Below are positions 6,117-54,880 of a stretch of DNA of 64,000 nucleotides, piece after piece. A program made the translations under genes and the position numbers. The stretch's first letter is position 1, and the number at the start of each line of letters is the position of its first letter. This DNA is from Oscillospiraceae bacterium. Lineage in GTDB: Bacteria; Bacillota; Clostridia; Oscillospirales; Ruminococcaceae. The stretch covers positions 310,001 through 374,000 of the forward strand of contig CABIZB010000003.1 in NCBI GenBank assembly GCA_902363145.1, in the 5' to 3' direction. The notes beneath the pieces were generated by a model. That model was not told the DNA's origin, did not search any database, and saw nothing but the letters and a program-made list of their open reading frames with translations.

Positions 6117-6452
<336 letters not shown>

Positions 6453-6461
6453 TGGGCATGA

Positions 6462-8135
<1,674 letters not shown>

Positions 8136-48601: not shown

Positions 48602-49609
48602 TTATCCCATTGTAAAAAATCTCTGTGTGGCTGTGTAGGTCTTGCCGGGAGCAAGCTCCTCATATCCGCTGAGTTCTGCGGGCATATCAAGGTTGGGGGC
48701 ATTTACCTGAGCGGTCATAGGCTCGGGGCAGAAATAGTTCATAAAGCCCTCGTGGTTCCATACTATCCAGAACTTGTACTTTTCATCTACCTCGTTGCAG
48801 ATGGTCTTGCCGCTGGCAGTATCGGTCATGATAGTGCCGTGGAAAGGCTTGCCGTCCAGCTCAAGAGTTCCGCCTGAATACATATCGTTGCAGATGTCCC
48901 TGAGAACGGGGCAGGTTCCGTTTATGTACTTCTTGTCATAATCGGTGAGCTTTGCACGCTTGCCTGTGGGCAGCCACTTGGACTTGTTGAAGAGAATATG
49001 CTCCACAGCGGGAACCTTCAGCCTGATATCCTCCTGAACAGCGCCGTCAACAAAGGGAGCGTTGATGGTGGTGTGTGTTGCGATAGATATGGGCATCATC
49101 TTGTCCGACTGATTGATAAGGGTTATCTTATGGGAAAGGCCCTTGTCGGAAAGCTCTATTCTTATTCTTACGGTGAACTTTACGGGGAAGCAGTTGAAGA
49201 AAAAGTCCTTTTCATCGTAAACATACTCGTTCTCCACAAAAGCGGTATTGCCCTTTGTGCCAAGCTCCTTTACGGTGTACGCTCTCTTCTGGATAAAGCC
49301 GTGGAGATGGTTGCCGAAGCGCTCCTCATTTACGGGCAGGCGATAAGTCGCATCAGATGTGTGCAGCACGCCCTTTTCAAAGCGGTTGGGCAGGTACAGG
49401 GTGGGAAGACCCCATATCTCGGGAGCGTTCATTATCTCGCCGATAGAAACGCTTCCGTTGTAGCGGAATATCTCCATTCCCCTTTTCTCGTCTCTGAAAC
49501 GGAGTACGTTGGAGCCCAGACCGTGAGCAACTATGGCATAATATCCGCCTGCGGAAAGCTCACAAACCTCTGTGCCCTTGTGGATCGCTTTTCTTGCATA
49601 AGTTTCCAT
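48602..49609 (-). CDS. Aldose 1-epimerase family protein
   Basis: A 335-residue GalM-like mutarotase. The family pattern is seen at GLGSNVLRFRDEKRGMEIFRY near 30-50, HLHGF near 105 and the second histidine region ATHTTINAPF near 180. The final third holds an IVWNHEGFMNYFCPEPMTA segment corresponding to the usual substrate-contacting part with Glu. It interconverts alpha and beta sugar anomers. It is the last gene in a same-strand row after sirtuin, nadC and the radical SAM gene (26-bp gap). AAGGAG precedes the start. Confidence 0.88.
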   Translation of the reverse strand: METYARKAIHKGTEVCELSAGGYYAIVAHGLGSNVLRFRDEKRGMEIFRYNGSVSIGEIMNAPEIWGLPTLYLPNRFEKGVLHTSDATYRLPVNEERFGNHLHGFIQKRAYTVKELGTKGNTAFVENEYVYDEKDFFFNCFPVKFTVRIRIELSDKGLSHKITLINQSDKMMPISIATHTTINAPFVDGAVQEDIRLKVPAVEHILFNKSKWLPTGKRAKLTDYDKKYINGTCPVLRDICNDMYSGGTLELDGKPFHGTIMTDTASGKTICNEVDEKYKFWIVWNHEGFMNYFCPEPMTAQVNAPNLDMPAELSGYEELAPGKTYTATQRFFTMG

Positions 49610-49635
49610 ATTCTATTTCTCCTTATATGTAACGA

Positions 49636-50244
49636 TCAGGTATCGTATTTTCTTATTCTGAGAGGTATGCCCAGCCTTTCGGATATCTCCTTGCTTTCCT
49701 CGATCTCACGCTCGGAGATAACATCTACAACGGTGAACATCACCTGAGGAACATACTTTTTGCAGTCCTGCGCAAAGTTGAGCAAAGCGCTGAAACTGTC
49801 CTCCCACTTAGGACGGGTAACAGCGTTGTAGTCCTTTTCATTGCCCGAATTAAGGCTTATGGAAACGATATCCACAGCCCCCTCCAGCATTGCTGCGGTG
49901 GGTCTGCCGTGAATTTTGTCCGAAAGCCCGTTGGTGTTCAGGCGTATTATCTTATGGGGATATCGCTTTTTCAGCTCTTTGCCGATAAAAACAACGTCCT
50001 CCGCCCTTTCCATAGGCTCGCCGTAGCCGCAGAAAACTATCTCATCAAACTCATCGGGAGAGTATTTGTCAAACTCTGCCAGAACTTCCTCGTTTGTGGG
50101 TTCTCTTTCAAGCCACAGGCTGTCGCTGCCGTATGCGCTGTCGCCGTTGTGGCGTATGCAGAACGTGCAGTTGCAGGGGCATCGGTTTGTCAGATTTATA
50201 TAAAGATTGCCGTGAACATTATAAACAAAGGTAAGACCTTTCAA
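49636..50244 (-). CDS. Radical SAM protein, TatD-associated type
   Basis: A 202-residue short radical SAM enzyme. The 4Fe-4S motif CPCNCTFC (CxxxCxxC, near 22-29) is followed by VFCGYGEPMER (SAM-binding GEP motif near 70-80) and IIRLNTNG near 98. It resembles the small radical SAM proteins usually found beside tatD, but no tatD gene is here. It starts at TTG with AGGAAG upstream, 16 bp after nadC, so coexpression with nadC and the sirtuin is likely. The substrate is unknown. Confidence 0.85.
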   Translation of the reverse strand: MKGLTFVYNVHGNLYINLTNRCPCNCTFCIRHNGDSAYGSDSLWLEREPTNEEVLAEFDKYSPDEFDEIVFCGYGEPMERAEDVVFIGKELKKRYPHKIIRLNTNGLSDKIHGRPTAAMLEGAVDIVSISLNSGNEKDYNAVTRPKWEDSFSALLNFAQDCKKYVPQVMFTVVDVISEREIEESKEISERLGIPLRIRKYDT

Positions 50245-50260
50245 AATAACACTTCCTATG

Positions 50261-51100
50261 TTACTTTCTGATTTTAAGTGAAATATCGAACGCCTTTACC
50301 GAATGGGTGATAGCGCCTACAGAAATAATGTCAACGCCTGTAGCCGCAGCAGCCGCAACGGTGTCGATATTGATGTTGCCCGAAGCCTCCAGAACAGCCT
50401 TGCCGTCTGCGATCTTTACGCACTCGGTCATTTCCTCCGGGGTCATGTTGTCAAGCATGATAACATCAACATTGCAGCCAAGAGCCTCGATAAGCTCTTC
50501 CTTGTTTCTTACCTCGACCTCAATCTTAGCCATATGGCCTATCTTCTTTTTAAGGGCGGTAACTGCGCCTGTGATGCCGCCGTATGCGTCAATGTGATTG
50601 TCCTTGAGCATAGCCGCATCGGAAAGATTGTAGCGGTGGTTGCGTCCGCCGCCTGCGGTGACAGCGTACTTTTCCAAAGCTCTCAGACCGGGGAGAGTCT
50701 TTCTTGTATCAACGATTGAAGCCTTTGTGCCGGCACAGGCTTCCACCAGCTTGTTTGTAGCTGTAGCAACGCCCGACATATGCTGGAGAATGTTAAGAGA
50801 GGTACGCTCCGCTTTAAGGATAGAACGTGTCTTTCCCTGAACTCTGGCGATGATATCGCCCTTTTTCACTTTTTCGCCGTCGTGAATGAACACCTCGCAC
50901 TTAACGCCGCTGTCGATGAAAGTAAATGTCCTCAGTGCGCAGTCGATTCCTGCCAGAACGCCCTCAGCCTTGGAGACAAACTCCGCAGTGGATATTTCGT
51001 CCTCAGGGATAAGCAGGTCGGTGGCAAGGTCAATGTAATTTATATCTTCTGACAATGCTCTCTTGATAACATCGTCAACATAAAATTCGGGTAAAAGCAT
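50261..51100 (-). CDS. nadC: Nicotinate-nucleotide pyrophosphorylase (quinolinate phosphoribosyltransferase)
   Basis: A 279-residue enzyme that makes nicotinate mononucleotide from quinolinate and PRPP, a committed step to NAD. It shows RTSLNILQHMSGVATATNKLVEA near 99-121, DTRKTLPGLRALEKYAVTAGGGRNHRYNLSDAAMLKDNH near 131-170, and the end VDIISVGAITHSVKAFDISLKI. nadA and nadB are not adjacent. It sits 24 bp after the sirtuin gene, an NAD consumer, in the same operon. NMN is also the phosphoribosyl donor for CobT. Confidence 0.97.
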   Translation of the reverse strand: MLLPEFYVDDVIKRALSEDINYIDLATDLLIPEDEISTAEFVSKAEGVLAGIDCALRTFTFIDSGVKCEVFIHDGEKVKKGDIIARVQGKTRSILKAERTSLNILQHMSGVATATNKLVEACAGTKASIVDTRKTLPGLRALEKYAVTAGGGRNHRYNLSDAAMLKDNHIDAYGGITGAVTALKKKIGHMAKIEVEVRNKEELIEALGCNVDVIMLDNMTPEEMTECVKIADGKAVLEASGNINIDTVAAAAATGVDIISVGAITHSVKAFDISLKIRK

Positions 51101-51124
51101 TTTATTTCCTCCGTGGATAATTTA

Positions 51125-51856
51125 TCAGTTGATGCAGTAGTCCAGAGTTTCGCCGATGCTCTCGGATATGAGCAGGTCGGCTCTGTCATCGTACTGGGTA
51201 GTGCTCTTGTTTATAAGAACAAGCTTGTTGCCCTTATAATATTCGATAAGACCGCTGGCAGGATATACGGAAAGCGATGTGCCGCCGATGATAAGAACAT
51301 CGCAGTTTTCGATAGCCTCGATAGCGCAGTCAACAGTGTGCTGGTTAAGGCTCTCCTGATAAAGCACCACATCGGGCTTGATAAGACCGCCGCACTGTGC
51401 GCACTCAGGGATAAAGGGAGAATTTTTTATGTACTCAGCATCAAACATAGCACCGCAGCGGACGCAGTAATTGCGGTGTACCGAGCCGTGAAGCTCATAC
51501 ACGGTCTTGCTGCCCGCAGCCTGATGAAGGCCGTCGATGTTCTGGGTGATAACTGCTTTGAGCTTGCCTCTTCTTTCAAGCTCCGCAAGAGCAAGGTGAG
51601 CTTTGTTGGGCTTAGCGTCAAGATAGAGCATCTTATCCTTATAGAACTCGTAAAACTCGCTTATATGGTTGCAGAAAAAGGTACGGCTCAGAATAGTCTC
51701 AGGGGGATATTTATATTTCATGTTATAAATTCCGTCCACGCTTCTGAAATCCGGAATACCGCTTTCCGTGGAAACACCTGCTCCGCCGAAAAAGACAATA
51801 TTATCCGATGAATCTATCCATTCCTTGAGCAGGGCGGTATTTTCGGTAATTGCCAT
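51125..51856 (-). CDS. Sir2-family NAD-dependent protein deacylase
   Basis: A 243-residue sirtuin. NAD-binding FFGGAGVSTESGIPDFRS near 21-38, catalytic histidine in ELHGSVHRNYC near 118-128, TQNIDGLHQAAG near 100, zinc cysteines in CVRCG and CAQCGG (near 128 and 152), and IGGTSLSVYPASG near 190 are all intact. It removes acyl groups from lysines and releases nicotinamide. The ATG at 51856 has AAAGGATTG upstream; longer frames lack support. It is first in the operon with nadC, the radical SAM gene and the epimerase gene. Confidence 0.95.
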   Translation of the reverse strand: MAITENTALLKEWIDSSDNIVFFGGAGVSTESGIPDFRSVDGIYNMKYKYPPETILSRTFFCNHISEFYEFYKDKMLYLDAKPNKAHLALAELERRGKLKAVITQNIDGLHQAAGSKTVYELHGSVHRNYCVRCGAMFDAEYIKNSPFIPECAQCGGLIKPDVVLYQESLNQHTVDCAIEAIENCDVLIIGGTSLSVYPASGLIEYYKGNKLVLINKSTTQYDDRADLLISESIGETLDYCIN

Positions 51857-51898
51857 AATAATCAATCCTTTCAAGCTCTTGCGTCTGCACATAAATTT

Positions 51899-51927
51899 AT
51901 TATAGCACACTTTTTTAAGGATTTCCA
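51899..51927 (-). promoter_or_regulatory. Promoter of the sirtuin-nadC operon
   Basis: On the minus strand: TGGAAA, 17 bp, TATAAT, with AAAAAAGTGTGC immediately before the -10. Confidence 0.65.
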
Positions 51928-51965
51928 CTGTTTTTTAAAATTTTTCTGATTTTTCTGAAAAGCTC

Positions 51966-51994
51966 TTGACAAATCATAAAAAGTGTGCTATGCT
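51966..51994 (+). promoter_or_regulatory. Promoter of the 32-codon gene and rtcB
   Basis: TTGACA, 17 bp, TATGCT, with AAAAAGTGTGC before the -10. A perfect 12-bp palindrome AATAAGCTTATT lies at 52002-52013, at the expected transcription start, and could be an operator. Confidence 0.8.
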
Positions 51995-52042
51995 TTTCGG
52001 CAATAAGCTTATTATCAAAATATTAAGAAGGAGGCGGAAACA

Positions 52043-52141
52043 ATGACAATGCTTAAAATATCACTTAAACTTACAGGTACATATAATAACATTCGGCAGC
52101 GCATTGGCATATCCGCACCTTTCAGAGGTCCTCTGCAATAA
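52043..52141 (+). CDS. Candidate 32-residue basic peptide gene
   Basis: The frame begins ATG-ACA-ATG and ends TAA. It encodes a cationic peptide with five Lys/Arg residues and one Asn pair, ending APFRGPLQ. There is no signal peptide or membrane helix. Evidence for real expression is contextual: a near-consensus promoter 49-77 bp upstream, an AAGGAGG seven bases before the ATG, and a strong terminator 28 bp after the stop. It may be a leader peptide controlling rtcB by attenuation, or an independent small protein. I recognise no homologue. Confidence 0.55.
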   Translation: MTMLKISLKLTGTYNNIRQRIGISAPFRGPLQ

Positions 52142-52169
52142 AATCAGGGGCAGATATAGTCATACATAA

Positions 52170-52201
52170 GGGCGCTTCCGGGTCGGAGCGCCCTTTTTTT
52201 T
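52170..52201 (+). terminator. Terminator between the 32-codon gene and rtcB
   Basis: GGGCGC.TCCG / CGGAGCGCCC stem with one bulged base, then eight T residues. Read-through would be needed for rtcB unless rtcB has its own promoter; none is obvious in the 34 bp that remain. Confidence 0.92.
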
Positions 52202-52235
52202 GCGCATTTGTGACCCACTTTCAAGGAGAATTTAC

Positions 52236-53435
52236 ATGATAGAATTAAACGGAAAATACAATACAGCAAAGGTTTTTACCGATAATATCGACAGCGCCTC
52301 GGTCTCCCAGATAATCGAGCTTTGCAGCCAGGAATTCACTATCGGCGAGAAAATAAGAATGATGCCCGATGTCCATGCAGGCGTTGGCTGCGTTATCGGC
52401 ACCACCATGACCATCACCGACAAAATTGTCCCCAACCTTGTGGGCGTTGACATCGGCTGCGGCATGGAGACTGTGCTTATCAGGGAAAAGCACATGGAGC
52501 TTATGCAGCTCGACAAGCTTATCAGGCGGACTATCCCCTCGGGCTTTGCCATAAGAAGCACTCCCCACAAGCTGGCGGAAGAGGCGTACATCTGCGCCCT
52601 CAGATGTGCCGACAAAATAGACCTGCGCCGTGCGGAGCGCTCTGTGGGCACTCTTGGCGGCGGCAACCACTTTATCGAAGCGGACAGGGGCGAAAAGGGC
52701 ATCTACATCGTTATCCACAGCGGCTCCCGTCATCTGGGTGCAGAGGTGGCAAAGTATTATCAGCAGCAGGCGGTAAAGCAGCTTGAACATTCGGGCGACG
52801 GCAAGATCCATGAGCTTATCGACAGTCTCAAGGCTCAGGGCAGGGAGAAAGATATCAGCCGTGAGCTTAAAAAGCTTGAAAGCACCAAGCGCATCACCGT
52901 GCCCAAAAATCTTGCTTACGTAAGCGGACAGCTTTTTGAGGACTACATTCACGATATGAAAATAGTCCAGCACTTTGCCGTGCTCAACCGCCGTGCCATG
53001 ATGACCGAGATAATCAGGGGAATGAAGCTCACGCCCGTTGAGCAGTTCACCACTATCCACAACTACATCGACACTGAAAACATGATACTCCGCAAAGGCT
53101 CTGTGTCCGCACAGGCGGGGGAAAAGCTGATTATCCCCATAAATATGCGTGACGGCAGCCTTATCTGCACAGGCAAGGGCAATCCTGACTGGAATTTCTC
53201 CGCTCCCCACGGTGCGGGACGTCTCATGAGCCGAGGCGAAGCCAAGCAGAGCTTTACCGTAAGCGAGTTCAAAAAGCAGATGGAGGGCATCTATACCACA
53301 TCTGTGAGTCAGGGCACACTGGATGAATGCCCCATGGCATACAAGGGCATGAACGATATCCTTGACAACATCGGCGACACTGCGGAGGTAAACGAGATAA
53401 TCAAGCCCATTTACAACTTCAAGGCAGGTGAGTAA
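52236..53435 (+). CDS. rtcB: RtcB-family RNA ligase
   Basis: A 399-residue ligase that joins RNA 2',3'-cyclic phosphate or 3'-phosphate to 5'-OH ends using GTP and Mn2+. Metal and guanylate residues lie in MPDVHAGVGCVIGTTM near 42-57, VGVDIGCGMETV near 68, LGGGNHFIEADR near 137, HSGSRHLG near 161 and APHGAGRLMSRGEA near 320-333, where the guanylated histidine is expected. It is shorter than E. coli or archaeal RtcB. No rtcA or rtcR is adjacent. A 58-residue basic protein follows. AAGGAG precedes the ATG at 52236. Confidence 0.95.
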   Translation: MIELNGKYNTAKVFTDNIDSASVSQIIELCSQEFTIGEKIRMMPDVHAGVGCVIGTTMTITDKIVPNLVGVDIGCGMETVLIREKHMELMQLDKLIRRTIPSGFAIRSTPHKLAEEAYICALRCADKIDLRRAERSVGTLGGGNHFIEADRGEKGIYIVIHSGSRHLGAEVAKYYQQQAVKQLEHSGDGKIHELIDSLKAQGREKDISRELKKLESTKRITVPKNLAYVSGQLFEDYIHDMKIVQHFAVLNRRAMMTEIIRGMKLTPVEQFTTIHNYIDTENMILRKGSVSAQAGEKLIIPINMRDGSLICTGKGNPDWNFSAPHGAGRLMSRGEAKQSFTVSEFKKQMEGIYTTSVSQGTLDECPMAYKGMNDILDNIGDTAEVNEIIKPIYNFKAGE

Positions 53436-53436
53436 A

Positions 53437-53613
53437 ATGAAAAGCTATGTTCCTTTGGAAAAGATGAGCAAGAAAGCAAAACGTGAATATTTTAACAAAC
53501 AGCGCAGAGACTGGGGCGGGCTTTCCCCTGTCACCCGCTGCGGTGGCACAAAGGGCTATGACCGTGCCGCCCATAAGGCGGAGAACAGGAAAGCCCTTGC
53601 AGAGATGAACTGA
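53437..53613 (+). CDS. Small basic protein cotranscribed with rtcB
   Basis: A 58-residue, strongly basic protein starting one base after the rtcB stop (AGGTG upstream). It is rich in Lys and Arg (KKAKREYFNKQRRDWGG near 12-28), with a TRCGGTKGYDRAAHKAENRK tail. It has no membrane segment. Such composition suits RNA or ribosome binding (inference). The tight coupling suggests a role with RtcB. I do not recognise a named family. Confidence 0.7.
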   Translation: MKSYVPLEKMSKKAKREYFNKQRRDWGGLSPVTRCGGTKGYDRAAHKAENRKALAEMN

Positions 53614-53632
53614 CAGCCTCTTTATTTTCCCC

Positions 53633-53662
53633 TTGACAATCCCACTCATTTTGGAGTAAAAT
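53633..53662 (+). promoter_or_regulatory. Promoter of the DUF4317 gene
   Basis: TTGACA, 18 bp, TAAAAT, 37 bp before the start codon. Confidence 0.7.
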
Positions 53663-53698
53663 AAAAGTTACCAATAACAAAGAAAAGGTGGAAACAAA

Positions 53699-54880
53699 AT
53701 GAACAAAAAAGAAGTGGCTGAAATAAAAAGAAGCTTTGCCGAGGGCTGCGGATTTTTTACCCTTAACCGTGTGCTTTACGCCTATGCGGACGCCGAAAAG
53801 AACATAAAGTACAGTGATGTTCGCAGCTGGGCAACTATTCCCGAGGACGAGGGCGCTGTGGTCATGGAGACGCTTAAAAAGGTTTTCAGCGGCACTCTCG
53901 GCAAAAATCTCAACGAGTACGGCTTTCCCAACGAGTCATATGAAGAGGGCGGCGCTCAGAATATCCTTTACGCCGCAGTAAAGGGAAAGCTGGAGGACGA
54001 AGAGGCAAACAAGGCGTTCATCGACCGCATTGTTGAAAATACCGCCATGTCCAGCGCATATACTATTATATCGGGTCACTGTACATACAGCATTCTTGTA
54101 AAGGACAAGAACGATGAGTGCATCGGCGAGGGCGACTCCGAGTACAACTTCATCGTAACTGCCATCTGCCCCGTAAACACAGGAGATGACGGCCTTTTCT
54201 ACGATGAGTCTCTGGAGACTATCGCAAAGAAGTCCAACACCGAGATGATAATTGCAAGAGCGCCTCAGGACGGCTTCTTCTACCCCATTTTCAGTGACCG
54301 TTCCCCTGACGTTAACCGTGTTATGTACTACACCCGCTCACCCAAGAAGCCCAATCTCTCCATTGTGGAGGACGTATTGGAGTGCCGCTTTGATTTCACT
54401 CCCGACGGTGAAAAGGAACGCTTCCGTGCAGTTCTCACCGATGTGTGCCGTGACGAGCTGGATTACACAGTTATCACCCGTGTAAACGACATTATCAAGG
54501 AAGTCATCGACCAGAACAAGAACGAGACCGAGCCTCCCGTAATTGACGCAAACAGAATGAAGACCATTCTTTCCGATGCGGGCGTAAGCGATGAAAAGCT
54601 TGAAGCCCTTGACGCAGTTTACAAGACTACTGTGGGCGACACCGCTCTGAAGGCGTCTAATCTTGTGGAGAACAAGACCGTTCTTTCCGTTCCCGAAATA
54701 ACCGTAAACATCAGCAAGGAAGCCACCGACAAGGTGCGCACAACCGTTATCCAGGGCAGAAAGTGCCTTATCATCGACCTTGACGACCCCAGTGTTACCA
54801 TCAACGGCATTGAAACCACCATTGAAACTTCTCAGAACTCCCCTGCCGCAGCTGCGGAAAATCAGCCTGTGACAGTCTGA
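53699..54880 (+). CDS. DUF4317 family protein
   Basis: A 393-residue soluble protein matching the Firmicute DUF4317 family: opening MNKKEVAEIKRSF, then the YADAEKNIKYSDV region near 28-40, LKKVFSGTLGKNLNEYGFP near 63-81 and the later DVLECRFDFTPDGEKERFRAVL region. There is no signal peptide. Its function is unknown in the family as far as I know. It is monocistronic with its own promoter, an AAAGGTGG ribosome site and a strong terminator. Confidence 0.85.
   Translation: MNKKEVAEIKRSFAEGCGFFTLNRVLYAYADAEKNIKYSDVRSWATIPEDEGAVVMETLKKVFSGTLGKNLNEYGFPNESYEEGGAQNILYAAVKGKLEDEEANKAFIDRIVENTAMSSAYTIISGHCTYSILVKDKNDECIGEGDSEYNFIVTAICPVNTGDDGLFYDESLETIAKKSNTEMIIARAPQDGFFYPIFSDRSPDVNRVMYYTRSPKKPNLSIVEDVLECRFDFTPDGEKERFRAVLTDVCRDELDYTVITRVNDIIKEVIDQNKNETEPPVIDANRMKTILSDAGVSDEKLEALDAVYKTTVGDTALKASNLVENKTVLSVPEITVNISKEATDKVRTTVIQGRKCLIIDLDDPSVTINGIETTIETSQNSPAAAAENQPVTV

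Follow-up and report, generated by a model that had tools for sequence, protein, structure and literature searches.

A probable ribosome-mediated transcription attenuator upstream of the RNA ligase gene rtcB in a Ruminococcus-like family of Clostridia

The stretch of DNA analysed here, 64,000 nucleotides from an Oscillospiraceae bacterium and called the window below, carries on its forward strand an rtcB gene preceded by a compact transcription unit. A promoter of sigma-A type (51966-51994) is read from the sequence as TTGACA at 51966-51971, a 17-nt spacer and TATGCT at 51989-51994, with TG just 5' of the latter. Near the start site lies a perfect 12-bp palindrome, AATAAGCTTATT (52002-52013, no strand assigned), followed by the Shine-Dalgarno (SD) sequence AAGGAGG (52028-52034), by a leader open reading frame (ORF) of 32 codons from the ATG at 52043 to a TAA (52043-52141), recognised from the reading frame and from relatives, and by a predicted intrinsic terminator (52168-52201) whose hairpin of 11 pairs (52168-52195) is followed by T to 52201. 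The gene rtcB itself (52236-53435, from the ATG at 52236 to the stop at 53435) encodes a predicted protein of 399 amino acids that, by its profile match to PF01139 (E 2.1e-59; 202.3 bits against a cut-off of 27), is a member of the RtcB ligase family. One base past its stop begins the gene of a basic 58-aa protein belonging to a small unnamed family (53437-53613). This arrangement, with a promoter, a short ORF bearing an SD sequence and an intrinsic terminator ahead of a structural gene, is that of an attenuator. An earlier note on this DNA had placed all of these parts where we find them, and the layout recurs in relatives. The same note had held that rtcB has no obvious promoter of its own, and in our scan, too, the interval from the terminator to rtcB is free of promoter-like sites; a weak one (9/12) lies upstream of the terminator at 52043-52071. 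The next gene downstream of the 58-aa ORF encodes a DUF4317 protein (53699), and a promoter-like site matching at 11/12 positions is found at 53633. Divergent from rtcB, on the minus strand (48602-51928), are genes for a SIR2 family protein deacylase, a quinolinate phosphoribosyltransferase, a radical SAM protein and an aldose epimerase, two of the four concerning NAD. A GenBank entry from human faeces labelled as an unverified Bacteriophage sp. (MT836245.1; locus L381) is 99.1% identical to the window across 51125-54880 and looks like a fragment of a bacterial chromosome.

Loci for comparison came from a species-level scan with one genome per species, of which the best 80 of 199 rtcB loci were kept, and from a viral collection, which added 7. 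Among those best 80 of 199, the closest rtcB relatives (80-84% protein identity) belong to Oscillospiraceae and Ruminococcus assemblies, so the region is probably from a Ruminococcus-like member of the Clostridia. Upstream DNA, scanty at some loci, was inspected in 86 of the 87, with SD-preceded ORFs tabulated; the window's layout was seen at 32, giving a first set of 33 leaders counting the window, six of which (L036, L039, L040, L044, L051 and L052) were added by motif. In the family to which the genome of L016 belongs, rtcB (E <= 1e-100) was found in 82 of 396 genomes, at 84 places; 70 of these were inspected, 10 being earlier loci, and 27 of the other 60 were accepted by eye as new leaders. 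The 60 leaders chosen by eye form 44 clusters at 75% identity, which constitute the training set. An order-level search and three genus-level searches gave further loci, and automatic rules based on the SD sequence, ORF length, the energy of the pairing called P1 below and the terminator, with codon content ignored, were applied to them. In their first form, tried on earlier loci, the rules found leaders at 54 of 146, missing 10 hand-picked leaders and making 5 calls outside the hand list. In a looser form they passed 74 of 144 previously unseen loci, 40 others having been excluded beforehand (31 already seen, 6 without the 5' end of rtcB, 2 with less than 230 nt upstream and 1 duplicate). Two of the 74 (L175 and L189) are obvious false calls; the 72 that remain bring the rtcB leaders to 132 in all (60 by eye and 72 by rule), of which 73 clusters were tested. 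The false leaders were left out of the cluster tests of pairing, folding and promoters and kept in the held-out codon test, for which the 41 of the 74 that share less than 75% identity with every training leader form 31 clusters; the 33 close to a training leader are absent from every cluster test. All these counts are lower bounds, because several loci that fail the rules (among them L277-L279, L290, L291, L297 and L300) show leaders by eye.

The leader seems to be largely confined to the Ruminococcus-like family. At the order level, where a few of the 57 loci came from the family sample, the automatic rules called three leaders, of which only L218 looks right, and L218 is itself a family-sample locus. 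In the viral collection, no leader was recognised at the six RtcB loci inspected upstream, the seventh (L087) being without the start of rtcB, and no plasmid matched the leader. Some assemblies hold two copies of rtcB, each with its own leader (G344, contigs C9 and C21; G916, C40 and C211; G935, C96 and C101), and could be mixed.

Across the family the promoter is strong by its boxes: among the 72 cluster representatives with enough upstream sequence, the best match has no mismatch in 12 positions in 47, which carry a perfect TTGACA-(16-18)-TATAAT, and a single mismatch in 14, against mostly 3-5 mismatches of 12 in shuffled sequence. The palindrome is a more local feature. Leaders of the window's class (L001-L005 and L091-L093) have inverted repeats of differing sequence, with 5-7 bp arms, within the 59 nt before the SD sequence; in L005, L091 and L093 the longest repeat lies away from the start site. 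The arms are only 3-4 bp long in six checked leaders of other classes. In the window's class the repeat may act as an operator or form a 5' hairpin.

The leader ORF varies between 20 and 38 codons and exceeds the length expected by chance. When 33 ORF bodies were shuffled they remained open 19% of the time on average, while the other two frames of the real ORFs are open in 9 and 0 of 33 cases, frame 0 being open by construction. The encoded peptides vary widely between leaders, whereas the start site, the ORF and the RNA pairing described below are kept, so the regulatory act is likely to be the translation of the ORF rather than its product. A Met-Thr start is frequent; outside the stretch that forms the pairing arm no other common peptide motif was noticed, and that stretch is itself read in differing frames (L016 versus L007; the window versus L002). 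The earlier note had suggested that the leader peptide controls rtcB: control through the leader ORF agrees with these data, but a regulatory peptide product does not, given how widely the peptides differ.

The SD sequence and start codon of the leader (52027-52045) are predicted to pair with the end of the same ORF (52102-52123), and we call this helix P1 and its arms switch strands 1 and 2. In the window, GAAGG, GCGGA and CAATG of the SD-AUG region take part, with a z score of -4.3 and none of 200 dinucleotide shuffles as good. The mean z over 73 clusters is -3.11, a value that is inflated and not independent evidence, because P1 energy helped to choose the leaders. Cognate arms are stronger (mean -19.8 kcal/mol over the 73 clusters) than arms swapped between leaders (-15.0); the cognate pairing beats the mean non-cognate one in 70 of the 73, with a median rank of 8 of 73. 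Positions -4 to -2 carry several types of standard pair, and at position -2 there are 26 C-G, 16 G-C, 14 U-A, 5 A-U and 4 U-G pairs. Once the arm has been transcribed, the predicted probability of P1 exceeds 0.5 in 64 of the 73 clusters. A median of 15 nt separates the end of the 3' arm from the last base of the leader stop codon, which is in turn followed after a median of 30 nt (quartiles 25-38) by the terminator.

Folds in which the SD sequence was blocked brought out a second pairing, which played no part in the selection of leaders. Here the 5' arm and loop of the terminator pair with a stretch at and directly 5' of the P1 arm, as expected of an antiterminator. The mean z is -1.50 (SE 0.15) over 73 clusters and -1.52 over the 44 training clusters, in which the reversed and the complemented terminator strand gave -0.05 and -0.02; individual clusters fall below -2 in only 21 of the 73. 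Upstream pairing of the terminator 5' arm has a probability of 0.69 when the SD sequence is blocked, 0.56 when it is left free and 0.42 when P1 is enforced, the difference between blocked and enforced being greater than 0.1 in 55 of the 73 clusters and less than -0.1 in one. By complementarity and folding, therefore, an antiterminator that uses the 5' strand of the terminator is present. In the window it joins a 5' strand at 52091-52121 to a 3' strand at 52146-52183 that includes the terminator 5' arm and loop (strand 3, the hairpin's other side being strand 4), through the pairs 52091-52096:52178-52183, 52098-52102:52172-52176 and, with gaps, 52105-52121:52146-52162. It has 10 paired nucleotides in common with P1, and P1 is an anti-antiterminator helix that excludes the antiterminator, as found in leaders selected in part by P1. 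In the truncated window RNA the antiterminator is favoured even when the SD sequence is free (0.61, against 0.62 when blocked and 0.34 with P1 enforced). In the full-length window leader at equilibrium the terminator has a probability of 0.88 in either state, and equilibrium folds of the full-length leaders listed mostly favour the terminator either way, L052 being an exception; any switch must therefore act during transcription. The earlier note's suggestion that the terminator may be conditional is, in our view, probably right.

Taken together, the unit is probably a ribosome-mediated transcription attenuator of rtcB. The layout, P1, the antiterminator pairing, the terminator, the restriction of one leader class's DNA pattern to rtcB and the absence of RtcR from the genomes tested (the last two described below) stand on computation; ribosome pausing as the signal and read-through as the outcome are what we infer from them. 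In such a scheme the strong promoter would drive constant synthesis of a short leader RNA. As long as this RNA is free of ribosomes, its SD-AUG region would pair with the late arm of the ORF to form P1, the terminator would fold and rtcB would be off. A ribosome translating the whole ORF would cover the arm and then halt some 15 nt beyond its end, usually at a distance of 25-38 nt from the terminator, which again would be free to fold. A ribosome paused in the early codons, on the other hand, would block P1 and leave the late arm and its 5' flank free to pair with the terminator 5' strand, and transcription would continue into rtcB and, where present, the 58-aa gene. The most likely stimulus would be a loss of functional tRNA or other damage to translation.

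Under another explanation, the unit would stand alone as a small gene or small RNA that ends at its own terminator, and rtcB would be expressed by constant leaky read-through that the unit does not regulate. A terminator is found, and is strong, in each of the 60 leaders chosen by eye, and the equilibrium folds keep it whether the SD sequence is blocked or not, as this explanation would have it. The company that the leader keeps argues against it. Among 125 genomes of the genus of L016, 38 contain between them 40 matches to a DNA pattern for one leader class, other than the window's; the same pattern read backwards has none there. The 30 matches examined as loci all precede rtcB (L355, at a contig end, was judged by the first 31 codons of rtcB), and by coordinates the remaining 10 lie directly before it, so that the pattern of this class is restricted to rtcB. 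Since, moreover, the leaders do not share a conserved peptide, complementarity between the end of the ORF and the terminator 5' strand exceeds chance, and the window has no promoter-like site directly before rtcB, we consider an independent small gene unlikely.

The antiterminator could instead be controlled by a protein or ligand, for example RtcB, the 58-aa protein or broken RNA ends, with the ORF merely keeping the RNA open. In favour of this is a second partner of the switch arm, needless for a plain attenuator: in many leaders, among them L042, L016, L007 and L133, the region that separates the terminator from rtcB holds, immediately 5' of the rtcB SD sequence, a further stretch complementary to strand 2 (mean z -1.96 over 70 clusters; controls +0.33 and -0.29). 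In L042 this amounts, by reading, to 16 bp without a mismatch. Such a partner can pair only in read-through RNA. The window is without it (z 0.1) and has a partner between the ORF and the terminator instead (z -3.4). A further point in favour is the 58-aa gene, which is associated with rtcB: in the 396 family genomes both were found in 43, rtcB only in 39, the 58-aa protein only in 33 and neither in 281 (Fisher p 3e-15, with differing E-value limits for the two queries), and at 28 rtcB loci the gene follows on the same strand within 3 kb. It is present, however, at only 16 of 32 leader loci in the flank examined. P1 encloses long loops of variable size (median 51 nt, quartiles 46-56), with no constant unpaired core noticed by inspection, and an SD sequence, start codon and ORF occur in every leader, by definition of the set. 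Nor does any Rfam 15 family match the leader at the gathering score: the window has no match, and the single match among 15 relative loci is a cobalamin riboswitch away from the leader. (In L005 a cobalamin riboswitch lies at 6305-6514, downstream of rtcB and the 58-aa gene.) Control by a protein or ligand is accordingly, in our estimation, quite improbable. A role for P1 as a translational lock on a functional small peptide, whose gene the terminator would end, would account for the hiding of SD and AUG, but beyond the Met-Thr start no common motif was noticed outside the arm and the arm itself is read in differing frames, which makes this highly improbable.

The 58-aa protein has no Pfam or NCBIfam match in profile searches, and a homologue search returned four close proteins only (75-95% identity). 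Seven residues (K9, K12, K13, R23, W26, P31 and T33) are invariant in 13 aligned sequences, some of them cut short, and a structure model with two helices (pTM 0.36) is uninformative. The earlier note had proposed this protein as a possible RNA-binding helper in an RNA-repair module; the association of the two genes partly supports a link with RtcB, but the 58-aa gene is often absent or elsewhere.

If the unit is an attenuator read by ribosomes, its early codons should name the signal. The leaders show no run of any one control codon. Tyr occurs in codons 2-17 of 43 of the 44 training clusters (29.4 expected; other frames 24 and 31). Control by Tyr alone was rejected, with 22 of 31 held-out clusters (19.3 expected, z 1.2) and 17 and 21 in frames +1 and +2. 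Tyr or Phe is present in 29 of the 31 (26.4 expected, z 1.7; other frames 24 and 29), and their combined count is raised, at 86 against 64.2 expected in the held-out clusters (z 4.4) and 199 against 141.1 in the pooled 75 (z 6.9). In the pooled set the count of Thr (z 3.0) and the presence of Lys (z 3.1) are also somewhat raised, and Trp and Cys codons are not enriched in codons 2-17. Ordinary low-GC genes treated in the same way show an excess of Tyr (63 against 51.2) but not of Phe (65 against 67.1), so part of the Tyr excess of the leaders is shared with such genes, unlike the Phe excess. The best candidates for control codons are those for Tyr and Phe, on codon evidence that is suggestive only. 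The sole Tyr codon of the window is codon 14, and a ribosome there would, by reading, cover the outer pairs of the antiterminator.

A T-box reads intact uncharged tRNA. A cleaved tRNA could be invisible to a T-box and yet be detected by a translating ribosome. According to the available text of PMC7790460, cuts after nucleotide 36, in the anticodon loop, occur in tRNA-Trp, -Tyr, -Cys and -Phe of Salmonella under conditions that induce the rtc operon, and some of the fragments end in a cyclic phosphate. Cleavage in the variable loop is described, in excerpts of the respective papers, for retron-Eco7, which depletes tRNA-Tyr (PMC11555353), and for a Septu system that cuts tRNA-Tyr (PMC13096335). 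The cleavage of tRNA-Tyr and tRNA-Phe in Salmonella and the targeting of tRNA-Tyr by the two other systems make a reading in terms of tRNA damage attractive. It is conceivable, if still doubtful, that the leader is a sensor of tRNA damage free of any sensor protein, in which ribosomes pausing at Tyr and Phe codons whose tRNAs have been cut would turn on RNA repair.

In the enteric leader-peptide attenuators of the trp, his and pheA type, the ribosome decides between 1:2, 2:3 and 3:4 pairings. The rtcB leader has a like pairing logic, but differs from them in using the ribosome-binding site as strand 1 and a part of the ORF itself as strand 2, and in having no run of a single control codon. The nearest mechanism that we found is the leader of vmlR, an ABC-F resistance gene of Bacillus subtilis, which, in the accessible text of PMC9226507, combines an upstream ORF, an anti-antiterminator, an antiterminator and an intrinsic terminator, and in which stalling of the ribosome on the ORF prevents the anti-antiterminator and allows read-through. 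Layout and logic are alike, stalling being what we infer for the rtcB leader. In the same text the vmlR ORF has 3 codons, against 20-38 here, and its SD sequence is predicted to be single-stranded before the hairpin, whereas the rtcB leader builds the first strand of its anti-antiterminator from the SD sequence and AUG; control would fall on an RNA ligase gene rather than an ABC-F resistance gene.

As far as the available text of PMC7790460 goes, expression of RtcB from the Salmonella rsr-yrlBA-rtcBA operon is under the control of RNA damage through the activator RtcR, which binds broken tRNA with a cyclic phosphate. RtcR is described in the literature as sigma-54 dependent. RNA-damage control of RtcB has thus been demonstrated there and would be the corresponding supposition for the rtcB leaders, with transcription attenuation in place of an activator: RtcR was found in none of 20 leader-bearing relatives tested, not all of them complete, and the E. 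coli control was positive. In the open-access literature, as far as the available texts go, we found no description of an rtcB leader, attenuator or antiterminator, or of the control of RtcB in bacteria without RtcR.

Judged from sequence comparison and folding, the leader unit before rtcB is real, conserved and regulatory. If the proposed mechanism is true, pausing of ribosomes on a leader would govern expression of an RNA ligase, so that RNA repair would answer directly to failing translation, and the rtcB leader would be a natural reporter for tRNA cleavage. The use of the ribosome-binding site as the first strand of a switch is a variation to look for elsewhere. Because the control codons would name the relevant tRNA, the leader also offers a way to learn the substrate of RtcB in gut Clostridia.
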